35,191 nucleotides of DNA from the NCBI GenBank assembly GCA_025927765.1, contig JAICKU010000040.1, positions 1 to 35,191 on the forward strand, in the 5' to 3' direction. The notes below the pieces were generated by a model that did no database searches, was not told the DNA's origin, and worked only from the letters and a program-made list of their open reading frames with translations. Shown here piece after piece: positions 893-29,376 of this stretch (the first letter of the stretch is position 1; each line of letters starts with the position of its first letter). A program made the position numbers and the translations under genes. Origin of the DNA: Burkholderiales bacterium (GTDB taxonomy: Bacteria; Pseudomonadota; Gammaproteobacteria; Burkholderiales; Casimicrobiaceae).

Positions 893-1795
893 ATGACTCG
901 TCTACTCGCCCGCGCTTGCTGTGCCGCCCTTCGCCTTGTCATGGCCTCAGTGCTTTCTGGAGCGCCGCTCGGCGCCAGCGCGGTCGTTTTCACTACGGAC
1001 TACGACCGGCTTACCGTCCTGCCCGCACTGACAAGCAACGGAGGGGACGTGGACTGGCGGTCGAAAGGAGCTGTGACGCCGGTTAAGAATGAAGGCACGT
1101 GCGACGCGAGCTGGGCCTTTGCCGTCGCAGGGATGGTCGAAGCTGATCATTTGATTCGGGCGGGACGGCTATTCAATCTCTCCGAGCAGGAACTGCTCGA
1201 CTGCACGGGCGCAGGGTCGGCATGCCGCGGCGGAAGTCCGGTCGCCGCATTGCGCACCGTTATCGCAAAGGGCGGCCTTGCCAAGACGGCCTCGTATCGC
1301 TATACCGCCCGTGAGGGAACCTGCAAGTCATTGACGCCAGTGGCCCCGATCCCGGGCGCGGGACGCGTGCCGCCGGGTGACGAAGCGTCGCTGCAAGCTT
1401 ACGTCGCTCAAGGTCCGGTGCTGGCACTCGTCAACGCGAGTGCGGCGTTCGATAGCTACAAAGGCGGGATCTTCACTGGGCCGTGCAGCGACAACAATCC
1501 CACCCGGGCGGTGCTAATCGTTGGCTACACGACTGGGGGTGGTGGTGGATACTGGATCGTCAAGAACTCCCTCGGTTCTTCATGGGGTGCGCAGGGGTAT
1601 ATCTACATGGCTCGCGGCACAAACCTCTGCGGGATCGCCAACTACGCAATCGCGGTCAGCAACGATCCTCTACCGCCGCCGGCCCCAGCCATCGCAATAG
1701 CAACACCGACATTGAGCGCGTGGGCTAACGGCATGCTTCTACTTGGCGTCGCCGCGCTTGGGTTCGCTGCGCTACGTAAGAATTCTGAGCGCTAA
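893..1795 (+). CDS. Papain-fold (C1) protein lacking catalytic Cys/His, IPTL-CTERM-like tail
   Basis: A 300-residue exported protein. Residues 1-30 form a signal peptide ending GASA. Residues 52-255 align by eye with papain-family (C1A) peptidases: DVDWRSKGAVTPVKNEG at the N-side, YWIVKNS near the end and paired cysteines (70, 104, 111). The catalytic positions are changed: the oxyanion Gln is Glu67, the nucleophile Cys is Ser73 (CDASWAF in place of C-G-S-C-W-A-F), the catalytic His is Arg205 (TRAVLIVGY) and the conserved Trp after Asn225 is Leu227. It should not act as a cysteine peptidase and may bind rather than cut. Residues 271-300 read TPTLSAW, then a hydrophobic helix, then RKNSER, like the IPTL-CTERM signal processed by exosortase H in other bacteria. 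The ATG at 893 is preferred over the in-frame ATG at 764 because the signal peptide starts there. Confidence 0.82.
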   Translation: MTRLLARACCAALRLVMASVLSGAPLGASAVVFTTDYDRLTVLPALTSNGGDVDWRSKGAVTPVKNEGTCDASWAFAVAGMVEADHLIRAGRLFNLSEQELLDCTGAGSACRGGSPVAALRTVIAKGGLAKTASYRYTAREGTCKSLTPVAPIPGAGRVPPGDEASLQAYVAQGPVLALVNASAAFDSYKGGIFTGPCSDNNPTRAVLIVGYTTGGGGGYWIVKNSLGSSWGAQGYIYMARGTNLCGIANYAIAVSNDPLPPPAPAIAIATPTLSAWANGMLLLGVAALGFAALRKNSER

Positions 1796-14429: not shown

Positions 14430-15395
14430 TCATACGCGCTTGGATGACCGTGCTTCACGTCGTTCGTCCATAGCCGCGTAGGCAACGGCCACGTCGGCGG
14501 CCAGCCGCGCGTTGTTGCGCACGAGCTCGACGTTGCTGCGCAGGCTTCGGCCCCCCGTCAACGCATTGACGCGCGCAAGCAGGAATGGCGTGAGCGCCTT
14601 GCCGGCGATGCCTCGCGTACGCGCTTCCGCGAGTGCCGTTTCCGTGGCCCGCTCGAGCGCATCGCCTGCCAACGCGAACGCTTCGGGGATCGCATTCGCG
14701 ACGACGATGCCGCCGTCGAGGCCGAGCCGCCACTTCGCGTGCATGACGCGCGCGACCTCACTCGCTTCGTCGCAGCGCGCGTCGAGGCGCAGGCCGCTGT
14801 CGCGTTGCAGGAACGCGGGAAAGCGGTCGGTGCGATAGCCGATCACCGGGACGCCCTGCGTCTCCAGGTATTCGAGCGTGAGTGGAAAATCGAGGATGGA
14901 TTTCGCACCGGCGCACACCACGGCAACCGACGTTCGCGCGAGTTCCTGGAGATCGGCGGAGATGTCGAAGCTCGCTTGCGCCCCGCGATGCACGCCGCCG
15001 ATGCCGCCCGTGGCGAACACGCGGATGCCGGCAAGCGCGGCGACGATCATCGTCGCGGCCACCGTCGTGGCGCCACCGACCCCGCGCGCGACGAGCACGG
15101 GAATGTCGCGGCGGCTCGCCTTGGCGATCGCCACGCCTTCGCGGCCGACGCGCTCGAGTTCGTCGTGCGTGAGCCCTGCCTTCAGCCGGCCGTCGACGAT
15201 CGCGATGGTCGCCGGCACGGCACCGCCGGCACGCACATCGGCCTCGACGGCGAGCGCCGTCTCGACGTTCTGCGGCCATGGCATGCCATGCGCGATGATC
15301 GTCGACTCGAGCGCGACGATCGGCTGCTGCGCGTCGAGCGCCGCGCGAACGTCGGTGCCGAGCTCCACGGCATCGGCATTCGCCTGCAGCCGCAT
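14430..15395 (-). CDS. psuG: Pseudouridine-5'-phosphate glycosidase
   Basis: A 321-residue PsuG, near the usual length of about 310. It reversibly splits pseudouridine 5'-phosphate into uracil and ribose 5-phosphate. Visible are ALESTIIAHGMPWPQNVETA with Glu30, GGVHRGAQASFDISADLQEL with a metal-binding Asp144, and Lys165 in CAGAKSILDFPLTLEYLETQ, the lysine that forms the ribose adduct in E. coli PsuG. The frame is open well upstream through the antisense of the M20 gene, but homology begins at the ATG at 15395. The usual partner kinase (psuK) is not adjacent. Confidence 0.9.
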   Translation of the reverse strand: MRLQANADAVELGTDVRAALDAQQPIVALESTIIAHGMPWPQNVETALAVEADVRAGGAVPATIAIVDGRLKAGLTHDELERVGREGVAIAKASRRDIPVLVARGVGGATTVAATMIVAALAGIRVFATGGIGGVHRGAQASFDISADLQELARTSVAVVCAGAKSILDFPLTLEYLETQGVPVIGYRTDRFPAFLQRDSGLRLDARCDEASEVARVMHAKWRLGLDGGIVVANAIPEAFALAGDALERATETALAEARTRGIAGKALTPFLLARVNALTGGRSLRSNVELVRNNARLAADVAVAYAAMDERREARSSKRV

Positions 15396-15409
15396 TCGCG
15401 ATTCGCCTG

Positions 15410-15598
15410 TCACTCGGGGACTCCGGCGAGGCGCAACGCATCGAACAGCGGCGCATACCCGGCGAGGTTCGCCGTCGGACGGATCCATCCCTTGATCGCG
15501 GTGATCAGCCGCGAGTAGCCGGCGACGTCGACGGCGACGATCGCGGCGAATCGCCGCTGATCGCGCACGCTGGGCTGGGGCAGAGGACGCTCGCTCAT
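15410..15598 (-). pseudogene. Class III adenylate cyclase gene, internal-deletion remnant
   Basis: A 62-codon frame that begins like bacterial class III cyclases (RRFAAIVAVDVAGYSRLI, the strand carrying the first metal-binding Asp) and, right after that, continues with GYAPLFDALRLAGVPE, which looks like the extreme C-terminus of TPR-containing cyclases. The catalytic core and repeats between are missing. The simplest reading is an in-frame internal deletion of a gene once well over 1.5 kb. It lies 14 bases upstream of psuG on the same strand. Confidence 0.5.
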
Positions 15599-15692
15599 GA
15601 CACGGGCTGTCATCAACGCAAGACGGCGCATGATACGCGTTGCGGCACGTCCCGTAATGGGGCCGCGGCTGCACATCGAACGAGACCCCATC

Positions 15693-17081
15693 ATGGCCAC
15701 GGCAAGCCGTTGCATCGAGCTCGCATCGTTGCGAGACGCGCTCGCGCGCCGGGTCGCGATTCCCACGGAGAGCCAGGACGACGCACGCCGCCCCGACCTC
15801 TTGCGCTATCTCGCCGACGAGATGGCGCCCGCGTTCGCGCGGCTGGGGTTCGCCACCGAACGATGGGACAACCCGCGCGCGGACGCGCCGCCCTTCCTCT
15901 TCGCCCGGCGCATAGAGGATCCTGCGCTGCCGACGATGCTCATGTATGGGCACGGCGACGTGGTGCGCGGGTACGACGAGCAATGGCGCGAAGCGTCGTC
16001 GCCATGGCAGCTCGAAGCAAAGGGCAATCGGTGGTACGGCCGCGGCACCGCCGACAACAAGGGCCAGCATTCGATCAACCTGGCAGCGCTCGAGCACGTG
16101 CTCGCGACGCGAGGTGCACTGGGCTGCAACGTCAAGTGGCTGTTCGAGATGGGCGAGGAAATCGGCTCGCCAGGGTTGCGGGCGATCTGCGAAATGCGTC
16201 GTCACGAACTCGCTGCCGACGTGTTCATCGCGAGCGACGGCCCGCGGCTGCGCTCGGACACGCCGACGCTTTTCCTCGGCTCGCGCGGCTGCCTCAACTT
16301 CACGCTGGACTGTGCGTTGCGTAGCGGCGCTCACCATTCCGGCAACTGGGGCGGCCTGCTCGCGAATCCCGGAACGATCCTCGCCAACGCGATCGCGTCG
16401 CTCGTCGACGGGCGCGGACGTATCCTCGTCGAAGCACTTCGGCCGCCGCCGACTCCCGCGAGCGTGCGCCACGCACTCGCCACGATCGAGCCGGGCGAGC
16501 CCGAGGGCCCCGCGATCGACGTCGATTGGGGCGAGCCGGACATGACACCCGCCGAGCGCGTGTTCGGCTACAACGCGCTGGAGGTGCTCGCGTTCGAGAC
16601 CGGGAACCCGCGGCAGCCGGTCAACGCAATTCCGCCGCGCGCGAGCGCGACGCTTCAATTGCGCTTCGTCGCCGGTTGCGATCCAGACACGTTCATTCCG
16701 GCGATCCGCACGCACCTCGATGCGCACGGCTTCACAAACGTGGGGGTCGCGCGCGACCGCGCAGAAGTCATGCGCGCCACACGCCTCGATCCAGACGATT
16801 TCTGGGTGCGCTGGGCGGTGACGAGCATCGAACGCACCACCGGCAAACGCGTCGCAGTTCTTCCAAACCTTGGCGGGTCGCTACCGAACGATTGCTTCGC
16901 GGACGTACTCGGACTCCCCACGCTCTGGGTGCCCCATTCGTATCCCGCATGCGCGCAGCACGCGCCCGACGAACACCTGCTGGCCGACGTCGCGGAGGAA
17001 GGCCTTCGCATCATGACGGGACTGTTTGAGGACCTGCGAAGCGTGCCGCCGGCGTCGGATCCTGAACGTACGCCACGATGA
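15693..17081 (+). CDS. M20-family metallopeptidase/amidohydrolase
   Basis: A 462-residue di-zinc M20 enzyme. Metal and catalytic residues are visible: His87 and Asp89 (YGHGDVV), bridging Asp121 (GRGTADNKGQ), catalytic Glu155 and ligand Glu156 (EMGEEIGSPG), Asp182 (SDGPR) and a late His in HAPDEHLL. A dimerisation domain sits in the middle (HHSGNWGGLLANPG). These enzymes cut dipeptides or N-acyl amino acids; the substrate here is unknown. The ATG at 15693 is chosen as the protein-like sequence begins there; ATGs at 15597 and 15657 are in frame. Its stop overlaps the next gene's ATG (ATGA). Confidence 0.88.
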   Translation: MATASRCIELASLRDALARRVAIPTESQDDARRPDLLRYLADEMAPAFARLGFATERWDNPRADAPPFLFARRIEDPALPTMLMYGHGDVVRGYDEQWREASSPWQLEAKGNRWYGRGTADNKGQHSINLAALEHVLATRGALGCNVKWLFEMGEEIGSPGLRAICEMRRHELAADVFIASDGPRLRSDTPTLFLGSRGCLNFTLDCALRSGAHHSGNWGGLLANPGTILANAIASLVDGRGRILVEALRPPPTPASVRHALATIEPGEPEGPAIDVDWGEPDMTPAERVFGYNALEVLAFETGNPRQPVNAIPPRASATLQLRFVAGCDPDTFIPAIRTHLDAHGFTNVGVARDRAEVMRATRLDPDDFWVRWAVTSIERTTGKRVAVLPNLGGSLPNDCFADVLGLPTLWVPHSYPACAQHAPDEHLLADVAEEGLRIMTGLFEDLRSVPPASDPERTPR

Positions 17082-25188: not shown

Positions 25189-25510
25189 GCGTCGTGGTCG
25201 TGAATGCGAGACGCCGGACGCAATGCACGAAGCGGACCAGCGTCCGTCCGCGCGCGCCGCATTGCGACGAGCGGCGCGGGCGAACGCGATCACCGATTGA
25301 ACGCTACAAGGCGACCGCGCGCATGTTTCGCGCGGCAACTTCGTTCGCCAGAACGGGCCGGGCACGCCGCCATCGCGGGCGGCCTCGTACTTCGCGTATT
25401 CGTCGCGGCCATCCCACGGAGCCAACGTTTCCGGCTACGTCATGCTGCGATACAGCCATTCCATGCCGGTTCGAGGTTGCGCAGATGGCCCATCGCGTCG
25501 ACGTTGTGCG
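25189..25510. other. Gap between pilU and the zinc-ribbon gene
   Basis: No supported gene. The minus strand is open in the pilU frame to 25425 and its first part (APWDGRDEYAKYEAARDGG) has protein-like composition, so a decayed small gene is possible, but I recognise no family and the sequence before the pilU ATG looks non-coding. No terminator or clear promoter was seen. Confidence 0.4.
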
Positions 25511-25879
25511 TCAGTGCCGCGTGCCGCGCTTGCCCGCGCGCCGGGGCGCCGCCACCGCTTCGACGGCCAGCGTGAACGTGCAGCGCTCGTTCGCGTCCAT
25601 CGCGCCGACGCCCACGAGCTTGCGCGCGATCTCCTCGCCCCGCTCGTTCTGGATCGTGACGACGACCGTGTATTCCCACGGATCGCCGTCGGCCGGGTGG
25701 CGGATGCTGCCTTCGATGCGAAGCGGGGTCAGCGCCGGCGTTGCGGTCGCGTCGGCGCCGTCATAGCGCAGGTAGTGCCGGCACGCCGGGCACCGCGCTG
25801 CGCTTTCGAGGATGGTTTCCCGGCAGTGCGGGCATTGTCGGGTGGCGCCCGCTGTGCCCGGGCGCGCACTCGGCGTCAA
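25511..25879 (-). CDS. Zinc-ribbon protein overlapping the bactofilin gene
   Basis: A protein of about 122 residues with a treble-clef/zinc-ribbon pair near its start: Cys16, Cys19, Cys30 and Cys33 (CPHCRETILESAARCPAC). A beta-rich region follows (PLRIEGSIRHP, EYTVVVTIQNERGEEIARK, NERCTFTLAVEAV), perhaps a small Ig-like or FxLYD-type domain, and a basic tail. No membrane helix or signal is present. I favour the TTG at 25879, which overlaps the bactofilin stop (TTGA), giving translational coupling after a purine-rich GAGGGCGGGG; an in-frame ATG lies inside bactofilin at 25933. Exact function unknown; the overlap argues that it works with the bactofilin. Confidence 0.68.
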   Translation of the reverse strand: MTPSARPGTAGATRQCPHCRETILESAARCPACRHYLRYDGADATATPALTPLRIEGSIRHPADGDPWEYTVVVTIQNERGEEIARKLVGVGAMDANERCTFTLAVEAVAAPRRAGKRGTRH

Positions 25880-26415
25880 CTCGCCCCGCCCTCGCGTTGC
25901 TTGCCAAGCTTGACGGGCTTCGCGTCGTCCCAACCGAACTCGGCCTGGCCACGCAGGCGCGCGCCGGCCGCGACCGTGAGCGAACCCGCTTTCACATCGC
26001 CGATCAGCACCCCCGACTGCAGCAGATCGACCAGCGTCGCTTCCTCGACGTTGCCTTCGAGTTCGCCGGCGATCGTCACCTTGTCCGCGCGGACGGCGCC
26101 GGTGAGCTTCGCGCCGTTTTCGATCGTGAGGTCGCCCTGCACGTTGACGTCGCCCTTGAACTTGCCGGCGATGCGCACGCTGCCGCCGCCTTCGATCTTG
26201 CCTTCGATCGTGATGTCGGAGGCGATCAGCGACTCCTTGCGCACGACCGGCGCTTCCGCACGCGCGACATGCGCGGGGGCCGGCGAGGGCGCGTGGTGCA
26301 CCGGAGCGGGCGCGGGTGTGATTTCGGGCTTGGGCGGCTCGTAGCGCGCGGGTTCGCGCGGTTCGGGCGCGGGCGTGGGCGTTGCCCGGGCGGTACTGTC
26401 TTTCCAGATGGCCAT
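25876..26415 (-). CDS. Bactofilin (polymer-forming cytoskeletal protein)
   Basis: A 179-residue bactofilin. Residues 15-58 are a Pro/Ala-rich flexible lead; residues 60-165 form the repetitive beta-helix core (SLIASDITIEGKIEGGGSVRI, GKFKGDVNVQGDLTIENGA, KVTIAGELEGNVEE). Bactofilins polymerise without nucleotide and scaffold cell-wall enzymes, stalks or polar pilus machinery. The tail (DDAKPVKLGKQREGGAS) overlaps the start of the zinc-ribbon gene. It is 35 bases downstream of the C13-like membrane gene on the same strand, and PilU lies just beyond, so a role in envelope or pilus positioning is a reasonable inference. Confidence 0.92.
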   Translation of the reverse strand: MAIWKDSTARATPTPAPEPREPARYEPPKPEITPAPAPVHHAPSPAPAHVARAEAPVVRKESLIASDITIEGKIEGGGSVRIAGKFKGDVNVQGDLTIENGAKLTGAVRADKVTIAGELEGNVEEATLVDLLQSGVLIGDVKAGSLTVAAGARLRGQAEFGWDDAKPVKLGKQREGGAS

Positions 26416-26450: not shown

Positions 26451-27950
26451 CTAACCCGAATCGCGCGCGGATGCAATGCTAAGCGACCGGGTCCCTTGAT
26501 GCCAAGAGAAAGTTCGAGCGCGGAACGTCGGCGCCGCGGTGCCGCGTTGCCGCGCGACGAGTCGGATCGGGGTCGCGTTCGAACCCGCGAAAGCCGTGGC
26601 CTCCGCCAGGGTGCGGCCCTGATGAGCGCGCAGCGACTTCAGGTGGTCGGCGATCGATGCACCCATCCACATCACCGGCGTGGGCGCGCCGAGCGCAGCG
26701 AGGCGCTTCTTCGCGGCGTCGAACGCCGCCTGCAGATCGTCGCTCTGGCCCATCTGGCCGAAGAACGCGTCGCCGAACCGGGACGCGACGAGACTGCCGG
26801 CGCAATCGTCCCCGCGCACGTTGGCGGCAGACGACGCGATCACGATCGTATCGTCGTCCGAGAGGGCGTCCTTCCATGCGCCGGCTGCGCAGGTCGACAC
26901 GACGACGATGCGCCAGCGGATGCCGGCCGCGTCGAGCAGTTGCTTGAGGCCGGGGGGTGACAGGTTCACGAGCTCGAGGGGCGGATTCGCCGCCGTCAGC
27001 GCGTGATCCGCTGCCGAGCTGCCCGTCAGGTACACCATCACGACGTCGTCATCCGGATCGACGAGGTCGCCGATCTCGAGCAGCGCTTCGCGCAGGTTCG
27101 TGATCGTTGCGAACGGCCGCTCGGCGACGGTCAGCGGACTGTTGACGAGCACGAGCGAGCGTCCCGACGTATGCCAGCGATTGTCCATCGCACGCTGCGC
27201 GGCCTCGACGTCGCTCACGAAGCCGGGCCGCCGCGCGTCCGGTGCGAAGCCGACGAAATAGAGATCGGTCACGCCGCGTCGCTCGTCGTCGAGCTGGTCG
27301 AGCGCGCGATCCATCAGGAACTGCTGCGCCGCGAGCACGGGCTCGGACGCCGGGTTCATCGCGTTCGACGCCGCGGCGGCGTCGTAGGTCCGCCACCATG
27401 GCTCGATGGGCCCGACGAGCGGCGAAAACCAGATGGGTGCAATGACGACGATGCCGCCGAACACCGCAAACGCGCGGCGATGGCGCGCAGCGCGATCCGT
27501 ACAGACGAAGACGGCGCGCATCGCGACGATCAGCATCCACGCGAAGAGCGCGGCATCGAACACGTCGCGCGTGAGGCCGGACACCACGGCCGACTGCCGC
27601 GGCAGGTCGGGCAGCAGGTGCACCACCTGGATCGCTGGAAACGACGCAAGGATGACGACGGGCAGCCAAAGGTACAGCGTGCGGTCGCGCCGCAGTGCCG
27701 CGAGCACGGCTGCGGTGAGCGCGAGCAGGCCGAGCGCGAAGAGCTCGCCGTGCACGCCGAGCACGGAAAAGCGCGCATCGCGGGCTGCACGCAGCCAGTC
27801 GGCATCGACGTCGATCGCTGCCGACACGAGCACGAGCAGCACGAGCTGCGCTGCCGACACGCGAAACGCCGCGGCGTCGACGGGCATGAAGAACGCGAGC
27901 CGAAGGCCCGCGGCGAGGTTTCGCCCGAGGGCGTGCAGGGCGCCGCGCAC
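26451..27950 (-). CDS. Membrane protein with C13 peptidase-like domain, catalytic His missing
   Basis: A 499-residue protein. Residues 15-180 hold four or five membrane helices; residues 205-420 resemble the bacterial branch of peptidase family C13 (legumain clan CD): DLYFVGFAPD, VVMVYLTG, ADHALTAANPPLEL, LLDAAGIRWRIVVVSTCAAG. The expected nucleophile Cys354 is present. In relatives the preceding strand ends S-H-G-S with the catalytic His; here it reads GSSA (310-313), with Ser at 311. The domain may thus bind substrate without cutting, or use His316 nearby. It starts 10 bases after the thrC stop and precedes bactofilin, so it may share their transcript. Confidence 0.75.
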   Translation of the reverse strand: MRGALHALGRNLAAGLRLAFFMPVDAAAFRVSAAQLVLLVLVSAAIDVDADWLRAARDARFSVLGVHGELFALGLLALTAAVLAALRRDRTLYLWLPVVILASFPAIQVVHLLPDLPRQSAVVSGLTRDVFDAALFAWMLIVAMRAVFVCTDRAARHRRAFAVFGGIVVIAPIWFSPLVGPIEPWWRTYDAAAASNAMNPASEPVLAAQQFLMDRALDQLDDERRGVTDLYFVGFAPDARRPGFVSDVEAAQRAMDNRWHTSGRSLVLVNSPLTVAERPFATITNLREALLEIGDLVDPDDDVVMVYLTGSSAADHALTAANPPLELVNLSPPGLKQLLDAAGIRWRIVVVSTCAAGAWKDALSDDDTIVIASSAANVRGDDCAGSLVASRFGDAFFGQMGQSDDLQAAFDAAKKRLAALGAPTPVMWMGASIADHLKSLRAHQGRTLAEATAFAGSNATPIRLVARQRGTAAPTFRARTFSWHQGTRSLSIASARDSG

Positions 27951-27960
27951 GTGAAAACGC

Positions 27961-29376
27961 TCAGCCGGAGACGTCGTGGTCGCGAACGAACGTCGCGACG
28001 GCGTCCGCGTCGGCGGGCAGCACCGTGCAATGCTGCGGACGCGATTCGAGTCCTTCGAACACGTTCGGGCGCGGCGGATCGATCGCGAGCGCCTCGCGGA
28101 TCGTCGCGGCGAACTTCGCGGGCTGCGCCGTCTCGAGACAGATCATCGGCACGCCGGGTTCGCGATGCGCGCGCGCAACGTGAAGCCCATCGGCCGTATG
28201 CGGGTCGACGAGCACGTCGTAGCGGCGCTTGACGTCGCGGATCGTCGCGATGCGGTCGGCGTGCGTGCTGCGGCCGGAAACGAAGCCACTCGCGCGGACG
28301 CGCGTGGCCACGGACGTGCCCGCGATGTCGAAGCTGCCGCCGGCACGAAGGTCGCGCCACAACGCGGCCAGCACATCGGCATCGCGGCCGGCCATGTCGA
28401 ACATGTAGCGCTCGAAGTTCGAGGCCTTCGAGATGTCCATCGACGGCGACGACGTCGCGTGCGTTTCCGCCGCGACGCGCGGACGGTACCGTCCGCTCGC
28501 GAAGAATTCGTGCAGCACGTCGTTCTCGTTGGTCGCGACGACGAGCCGTTGAACGGGCAGGCCCATCTCGCGGGCGACGTGGCCGGCGAGCACGTTGCCG
28601 AAGTTGCCCGAAGGCACGGCAAAGGCGACGCGCTCGTCGTCGCTTCGGGTCGCGGCGAAGTAGCCCTTGAAGTAATAGACGACCTGCGCCGCGATGCGCG
28701 CCCAGTTGATCGAGTTCACGGCACCGAGCGCGTGACGCCGCTTGAACGCAGCGTCGCCCGCGAGCACCTTGACGATGTCCTGGCATTCGTCGAACGTACC
28801 TTCGATCGCGAGGTTGTGGATGTTCGGTGCATCGAGCGAATACATCTGTGCCTGCTGGAACGCGCTCATGCGCCCGCGCGGCGACAGCATGTACACGGCG
28901 ATGCCCTGCTTGCCGAGCATCGCGTACTCGGCCGAGCTGCCGGTGTCGCCGGACGTCGCGCCGAGGATGTTGAGGCGCTCGCCGCGAAGCGCGTGCTCGA
29001 ACAGGTTGCCGAGGAGCGACAGCGCGATGTCCTTGAACGCGAGCGTCGGCCCGTTCGACAGGTGCAGCAGGTGCACGCCGGGCTCGAGCGTCGTGAGCGG
29101 CGTGATGTCGGAGCTGCCGAAGCGCGCGCGCGTGTACGTGAGGCGCACGAGGTCGTCGAGGTCGGCGTGCGCAATGTCGTCGGCGAAACGCGCGAGAATG
29201 GCCGAGGCGAGTTCCGGGTACGAGAGCGGCCGCAGCGCTGCAAGCTCATCGCGCGTCAACCGTGGATACGCGAGCGGCACCGCGAGGCCGCCGTCGGGCG
29301 CGAGGCCTTCGAGCAGGATCGCCGAAAACGGCTGCGGCGCGCCGCGCCATGCGCCACGCGTGCTGACGTACTTCAT
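27961..29376 (-). CDS. thrC: Threonine synthase
   Basis: A 471-residue PLP enzyme that turns O-phosphohomoserine into threonine. It starts MKYVSTRG, has SNGPTLAFKDIALSLLGNL with the PLP lysine Lys115, and GATSGDTGSSAEYAMLGKQG, the phosphate-binding motif. Its length and the long N-terminal domain match the class found in E. coli-like proteobacteria. It lies 40 bases downstream of hom, as the third gene of a threonine operon. Confidence 0.95.
   Translation of the reverse strand: MKYVSTRGAWRGAPQPFSAILLEGLAPDGGLAVPLAYPRLTRDELAALRPLSYPELASAILARFADDIAHADLDDLVRLTYTRARFGSSDITPLTTLEPGVHLLHLSNGPTLAFKDIALSLLGNLFEHALRGERLNILGATSGDTGSSAEYAMLGKQGIAVYMLSPRGRMSAFQQAQMYSLDAPNIHNLAIEGTFDECQDIVKVLAGDAAFKRRHALGAVNSINWARIAAQVVYYFKGYFAATRSDDERVAFAVPSGNFGNVLAGHVAREMGLPVQRLVVATNENDVLHEFFASGRYRPRVAAETHATSSPSMDISKASNFERYMFDMAGRDADVLAALWRDLRAGGSFDIAGTSVATRVRASGFVSGRSTHADRIATIRDVKRRYDVLVDPHTADGLHVARAHREPGVPMICLETAQPAKFAATIREALAIDPPRPNVFEGLESRPQHCTVLPADADAVATFVRDHDVSG

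Follow-up and report, generated by a model that had tools for sequence, protein, structure and literature searches.

A gene of a Burkholderiales genome raises the question of what a papain-fold protein would do in a bacterium when the residues that carry catalysis in papain have been replaced and when its C-terminal end resembles a sorting signal. The window, that is the whole stretch of DNA analysed here, has 35,191 bases and corresponds to the entire contig C93 of a 4.0 Mb genome (148 contigs, 95.6% complete). The location of the gene and of its relevant parts is given in Table 1. An alternative in-frame ATG at 764 would extend the product to 343 aa, in which case the signal peptide would be internal. 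A spacer of ca. 21 aa separates the signal peptide from the papain-like domain, the tail terminates in the basic motif RKNSER, and no sigma-70-like promoter was detected by a promoter scan of positions 400 to 2000.

Table 1. Location of the gene, its segments and the codons of papain active-site positions in the window
Feature	Coordinates	Strand	Basis or remark
CDS, 300 aa, predicted secreted papain-fold pseudoprotease with IPTL-CTERM-like tail	893..1795	+	ATG at 893, intact
Probable Sec signal peptide, residues 1-30	893..982	+	By eye: hydrophobic core, ASA before VV
Peptidase_C1 (papain-fold) domain, residues 52-254	1046..1654	+	Pfam match, no I29 propeptide
Glu67 codon, papain Gln19 (oxyanion hole)	1091..1093	+	Alignment
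Ser73 codon, papain Cys25 (nucleophile)	1109..1111	+	Alignment
Arg205 codon, papain His159	1505..1507	+	Alignment
Asn225 codon, papain Asn175, kept	1565..1567	+	Alignment
Leu227 codon, papain Trp177, lost	1571..1573	+	Alignment
Pro/Ala-rich linker, residues 255-270	1655..1702	+	Sequence
IPTL-CTERM-like sorting tail, TPTLSAW followed by a hydrophobic stretch and a basic end, residues 271-300	1703..1792	+	Models

The protein matches Peptidase_C1 (PF00112) with 189.9 bits over model positions 4-218 of 220, which corresponds to a whole C1A domain. No second Pfam family was found in it up to E 10, and the I29 propeptide of eukaryotic-type active C1A peptidases is therefore absent. Residues were assigned by alignment to two plant enzymes, ervatamin B at 48% identity and caricain at 45%. 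This alignment agrees with the sequence-only reading, in which serine, arginine and glutamate had been placed at the positions of the nucleophile, the catalytic histidine and the oxyanion glutamine, respectively, and in which the fold-defining cysteines and Asn225 were said to be retained. Indeed, Cys70, 104, 111, 144, 198 and 246 align to papain cysteines 22, 56, 63, 95, 153 and 200 (6/6), which form the disulfides of papain. The loss of Trp177 and the missing propeptide come in addition to that first observation. The protein resembles plant C1A peptidases (ervatamin B, caricain and ficin) in its fold, its six disulfide cysteines and Asn175, and differs from them in that Cys25, His159, Gln19 and Trp177 are all replaced, in that I29 is lacking and in that it carries a bacterial sorting tail. 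These data support the prediction of a catalytically dead papain fold.

Two AlphaFold runs, based on 6 and 5 sequences, gave low-confidence models with a mean pLDDT of 44.8 and 38.5, respectively. In a Foldseek search with the first model, ranks 1-8 were all occupied by plant enzymes of the papain family (best E 5e-15), with TM values of 0.33-0.37 by query and 0.41-0.48 by target and an rmsd of about 10 to 12 in the best 50 rows, values that would be enough to indicate the fold class of the predicted model but not its geometry.

Whether the substitutions are peculiar to this copy was addressed by scanning 84,980 species genomes with two peptide patterns obtained by aligning the window protein with the two plant enzymes. 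Forty-eight stretches matched and five loci were confirmed (L022 to L026); as short peptides have to match exactly, the scan would overlook more distant members. Three of the five proteins have also lost Cys25, His159 and Trp177. The first, L022, belongs to a Burkholderiales of the same genus and is 76% identical to the window protein over residues 9-300; its residues at Gln19, Cys25, His159, Asn175 and Trp177 are E/S/Q/N/R. At the same positions, L023 (Bryobacteraceae, Acidobacteriota) has E/D/Q/L/M and L024 (Ca. Binataceae, Binatota) has Q/S/A/N/L. The two remaining loci, L025 (Chitinophagaceae) and L026 (Tepidiphilus), have intact Cys and His. In the order window protein, L022, L023 and L024, the four dead proteins thus display S/S/D/S at Cys25, R/Q/Q/A at His159 and L/R/M/L at Trp177. 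All four have an intact reading frame and the six structural cysteines, and none has an I29 propeptide, which was detected in the control L025 with E 1.3e-10. The window gene is therefore not a lone copy with random changes. Of the two residues that stand at the catalytic sites, serine occurs in three of the four and arginine is not conserved; since position 205 reads R/Q/Q/A across the four proteins, Arg205 is probably no functional substitute for the histidine.

The gene is rare in its own lineage. It occurs in 2 of the 22 genomes of the genus, the second being G715 (84% complete), which is taken to be the genome of L022 because it encodes the same 336-aa frame, and a family-level search with the alignment matched 3 of 64 genomes, namely these two and one with a weak match. 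Site counts were made on the loci among the matches listed (best 20-30 per search), with five duplicates left out and with no row for the L014 match, a 68-aa open frame. Cys25 is a cysteine in 51/55 and His159 a histidine in 54/58 of the loci aligned there, the four exceptions corresponding in both cases to the dead proteins. Trp177 is kept in 53/59 distinct loci, the exceptions beyond the dead four being L104 (Met) and L040 (Gln), and Asn175 in 56/59, with Leu in L023 and Asp in L091 and L105. No further dead member was seen in the order of the L024 genome (3/41 genomes matched, among the sites read), in that of the L023 genome (32/257, among 20 loci listed) or in the phylum of the L024 genome (72/395, among 20 loci listed), and dead copies among the lower-ranking matches of these order and phylum searches are possible. 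Samples of the window's class (9/369 genomes matched) and order (5/300), which include the window's own genome, otherwise contained distant C1 peptidases only. Phages gave no match, plasmids gave two records that are distant C1 peptidases with no near relative, and 56 pattern stretches in viral contigs yielded no confirmed locus.

In a maximum-likelihood tree of 48 rows, from which 27 locus ids were excluded (5 duplicates and 22 split or very divergent matches), the four dead proteins form one clade with a support of 100/98. An artefact of common active-site losses was ruled out, since the clade persists at 98/94 after dropping the active-site columns. In the same tree, nine plant enzymes join the dead clade (93/96), and a 100/99 branch separates them from the ordinary bacterial C1 loci. 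A second tree, in which six more eukaryotic enzymes were added and the bacterial side was reduced to 8 of 32 rows, joins the dead four to caricain (89/87). Plant enzymes are also the top solved relatives of each of the three members searched, namely the window protein, L024 and L023. A single dead clade, nearer to eukaryotic papain and cathepsin L than to ordinary bacterial C1 peptidases, is thus well supported.

Its ultimate origin is less firmly placed. AU tests of five groupings reject none of them (p 0.452, 0.123, 0.144, 0.138 and 0.211), including those in which plants alone form one clade (0.123), the dead four fall outside all sampled eukaryotes (0.144) or the dead four join non-plant eukaryotes (0.211), and a plant origin is therefore given as the best tree only and is not firm. 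The four proteins probably descend from a eukaryote-type gene, papain- or cathepsin L-like, acquired by horizontal transfer. The competing view, that of an old bacterial lineage standing beside eukaryotic cathepsin L and papain with no transfer, draws on these three surviving groupings and on a eukaryotic sample limited to 17 solved enzymes and L025; the nesting of the dead four with plant papains in the top trees, the plant enzymes as nearest solved relatives and the position of ordinary bacterial loci beyond the 100/99 branch argue against it. It is the less probable of the two, though a serious candidate, and it concerns the origin only, leaving the pseudoenzyme reading unaffected. As a separate observation, L025 (CANJII010000087.1, 2425-3534), carried by a 5 kb contig of a Chitinophagaceae MAG, is a eukaryote-type cathepsin L with I29 and intact catalytic residues; one tree groups it with an insect enzyme, and it may represent eukaryotic contamination of that MAG.

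The C-terminal end had been likened to the IPTL-CTERM signal processed by exosortase H. With the IPTL-CTERM model TIGR04174, the window tail scores 7.7 bits for a cut-off of 20.5, and with NF033207 it scores 13.4 bits for a cut-off of 45, so that the likeness does not stand at the level of the general IPTL and midcut models. It does stand at the level of the genus: a model built from 29 IPTL tails of 30 loci (L003 and L058-L086, with L078 omitted for its PEP-CTERM-like tail, and with the window's own tail excluded) gives 29.1 bits, a lineage-specific match. A chance origin of this match was ruled out by 5000 shuffles of the last 36 residues, of which 2931 scored, the best at 9.0, and none reached 29.1. 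The tail of L022 has no Trp and scores 14.0 bits with the genus model, the best of 5000 shuffles reaching 2.8. From these scores it would appear that, in genomes with XrtH, lineage-specific tails can escape the general IPTL-CTERM model.

The exosortase that such a signal calls for was found in the window's genome, on contig C88, with 176.1 bits for a cut-off of 86 (XrtH, TIGR04177), together with one IPTL-CTERM match above cut-off (34.1 bits). XrtH is above cut-off in 20 of the 22 genus genomes versus 0 of 14 control genomes, and 21 of the 22 have a tail above the TIGR04174 cut-off. In G715, which is 84% complete, no XrtH was detected and the only tail match is weak and PEP-CTERM-like, which could mean either that sequence is missing or that the signal is relaxed there. 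Among the four dead proteins, the tail is confined to the two Burkholderiales genus members; L023 and L024 have none, though the genome of L023 has XrtH. The window protein thus has in common with IPTL-CTERM/XrtH systems the PTLS-x-W motif, the hydrophobic stretch, the basic end and an XrtH in the genome, and differs from them by a tail that starts with Thr and stays below the general cut-off and by a dead C1A domain as cargo. Several other tails of the genus lack the usual Trp, such as IPTLSRAAL, VPTLDATSL and IPTLGEAAS (L071, L074, L085, L077 and L070), and are still above the TIGR04174 cut-off; recognition may extend to motifs beyond IPTL-x-W.

The reading that we favour, with a probability of about 0.72, is that of a secreted, envelope-anchored pseudoprotease acting as a putative binding module, which probably binds instead of cutting. 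As a papain-fold pseudoenzyme, the protein would be exported by Sec, exosortase H would cleave its IPTL-type tail, and the domain, once folded, would stay attached to the envelope or the surface, where the cleft would bind a peptide or a protein with no cutting. A putative role as a binding or inhibitor protein, as first proposed, is reasonable. The candidate ligands judged most natural are a cystatin-like or propeptide-like C1 inhibitor, for which the protein would be a decoy, and an extracellular protein, as for TINAG. In known complexes Trp177 contacts cystatin, and its loss disfavours classical cystatin docking in the present case. The idea that it regulates a sister protease was abandoned because the window gene is the only PF00112 match in its own genome, with no active C1 paralog. 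With no C1 sister to shield, a decoy would have to serve another protease or an environmental inhibitor.

For this mechanism, the closest tested precedent by analogy is an insect protein. According to PMC8583781, the pseudo-cathepsin L Sl-CathL-CS, which has Ser for Cys, is inactive as a protease but binds a cystatin from sugarcane, and a decoy role has been proposed; the same paper mentions further variants in that insect transcriptome, in which Arg or Phe occupies the Cys position and both His and the propeptide are missing. Sl-CathL-CS is like the window protein in its cathepsin L-type fold, its serine and its dead site. The two differ in that Sl-CathL-CS is a gut protein for which cystatin binding has been demonstrated, while the predicted feature of the window protein is its envelope anchor. 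A papain fold without the catalytic cysteine is also indicated by the title of PDB 2b1m (SPE31), which comes from seeds of Pachyrhizus erosus and is a plant protein, unlike the bacterial one described here. Other papain-like domains of non-enzymatic role include those of Plasmodium SERA5 (PMC4671257) and of human TINAG and TINAL, named as inactive in PMC10318531; these proteins differ from the window protein in being eukaryotic and of other architectures.

In a more specific scenario, a plant or another eukaryote would have been the source of a papain gene that lost catalysis once and then passed between bacterial phyla as an inactive domain used for binding, the exosortase tail being added in one Burkholderiales genus; the product, displayed on the cell, would serve as decoy or receptor, either for eukaryotic inhibitors of C1 proteases, such as phytocystatins, or for other plant-papain ligands. 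Taken as a whole, this chain of events is speculative and rather unlikely.

An enzyme retooled for another reaction, with Ser73 as the nucleophile and Glu67 as the base of a silicatein-like or esterase-like chemistry, would also account for a replaced cysteine. Silicateins keep the histidine, and a silicatein-like protein is defined by Ser25 with His kept; this is not what is found here, the histidine being replaced in 4/4 dead proteins. Some points favour such a conversion, since silicateins are described in PMC4671257 and PMC6233156 as Ser-containing cathepsin L relatives with activity, and since the two genus members agree at Ser73 and Glu67 but diverge at 205 and 227. Yet L023 has Asp in place of the Ser and L024 has Gln in place of the Glu, so that no dyad is common to the dead clade, and the conversion appears improbable.

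Selection was estimated by comparing the window gene with L022. The domain is under purifying selection, with dN 0.11, dS 0.65 and dN/dS 0.17 (NG86), the ratio being 0.17 with LWL85 and 0.16 with YN00, and differences over the whole gene are distributed as 49/37/111 by codon position (chi-square p 4e-11). The signal peptide (residues 1-29; dN/dS 0.43, NG86 alone) and the tail (0.37, NG86; a short segment) evolve faster than the domain. Glu67, Asp71, Ala72 and Ser73 are identical in the two proteins, and positions 205 (R/Q) and 227 (L/R) differ. A fold under selection from which the catalytic residues have been lost corresponds, as far as the sequence can tell, to a pseudo-C1A protein. Decay would instead mean that drift has removed the catalytic residues of a formerly active protease whose gene is now disappearing, and the patchy presence of the gene in the genus, together with active-site positions that differ even between its two members, could be taken in that sense. 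Such a course is very unlikely given the low dN/dS at a dS of ca. 0.65, the bias in codon positions, the intact frames and six structural cysteines of all four proteins, and a single dead clade represented in three phyla. An assembly artefact or eukaryotic contamination, to which the location of the gene 0.9 kb from the contig end and its resemblance to plant enzymes might point, is hardly credible, as the same contig carries ordinary bacterial genes, the tail is bacterial and of the genus type, a second assembly of the genus has the gene at 76-78% identity with other neighbours, and its GC content is 0.63 versus 0.656 for the window.

Dead papain-like proteins are already known from animals, plants and parasites. 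In the open-access literature, a corpus that leaves subscription papers mostly outside, the titles and abstract openings listed include no paper on XrtH sorting or on a dead C1A protein from bacteria, and a dead C1A clade joined to an exosortase-type tail is absent from the part of it searched. Earlier notice of bacterial cases is possible, since a table arranged by domain of life in PMC10380794 has an entry 'Loss of active site'. A dead eukaryotic-type clade that occurs in three bacterial phyla without a propeptide, with an exosortase-type tail in one genus, would be an uncommon cross-kingdom example in which an enzyme has become a binding protein displayed by the cell, and would offer a small domain for asking what a non-cutting papain cleft binds.

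Finally, several observations were made around these loci. No conserved gene neighbourhood was apparent when the ORF lists of L022, L023/L036 and L024 were compared by eye. Next to the Bryobacteraceae dead C1A gene, the protein encoded by L036:2640-3446 (-) ends in APNSLWLMSLGVAGMAGLEALRRLRKSA, which by eye looks like a sorting tail of a different type, and L023:931-1356 encodes ca. 140 aa, signal peptide included, ahead of the papain domain, a segment that matches no Pfam family up to E 1. In the window, a 765-aa ORF at 14430-16727 (-) matches Pfam Indigoidine_A at residues 460-749 only; nothing in the 459 residues at its start matches at E 0.001, which would suit either a fusion or a start codon located further downstream. 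Two other ORFs, of 300 aa at 25442-26344 (+) and of 409 aa at 27003-28232 (+), have no Pfam match at E 0.001 and are possibly spurious frames of high-GC DNA.
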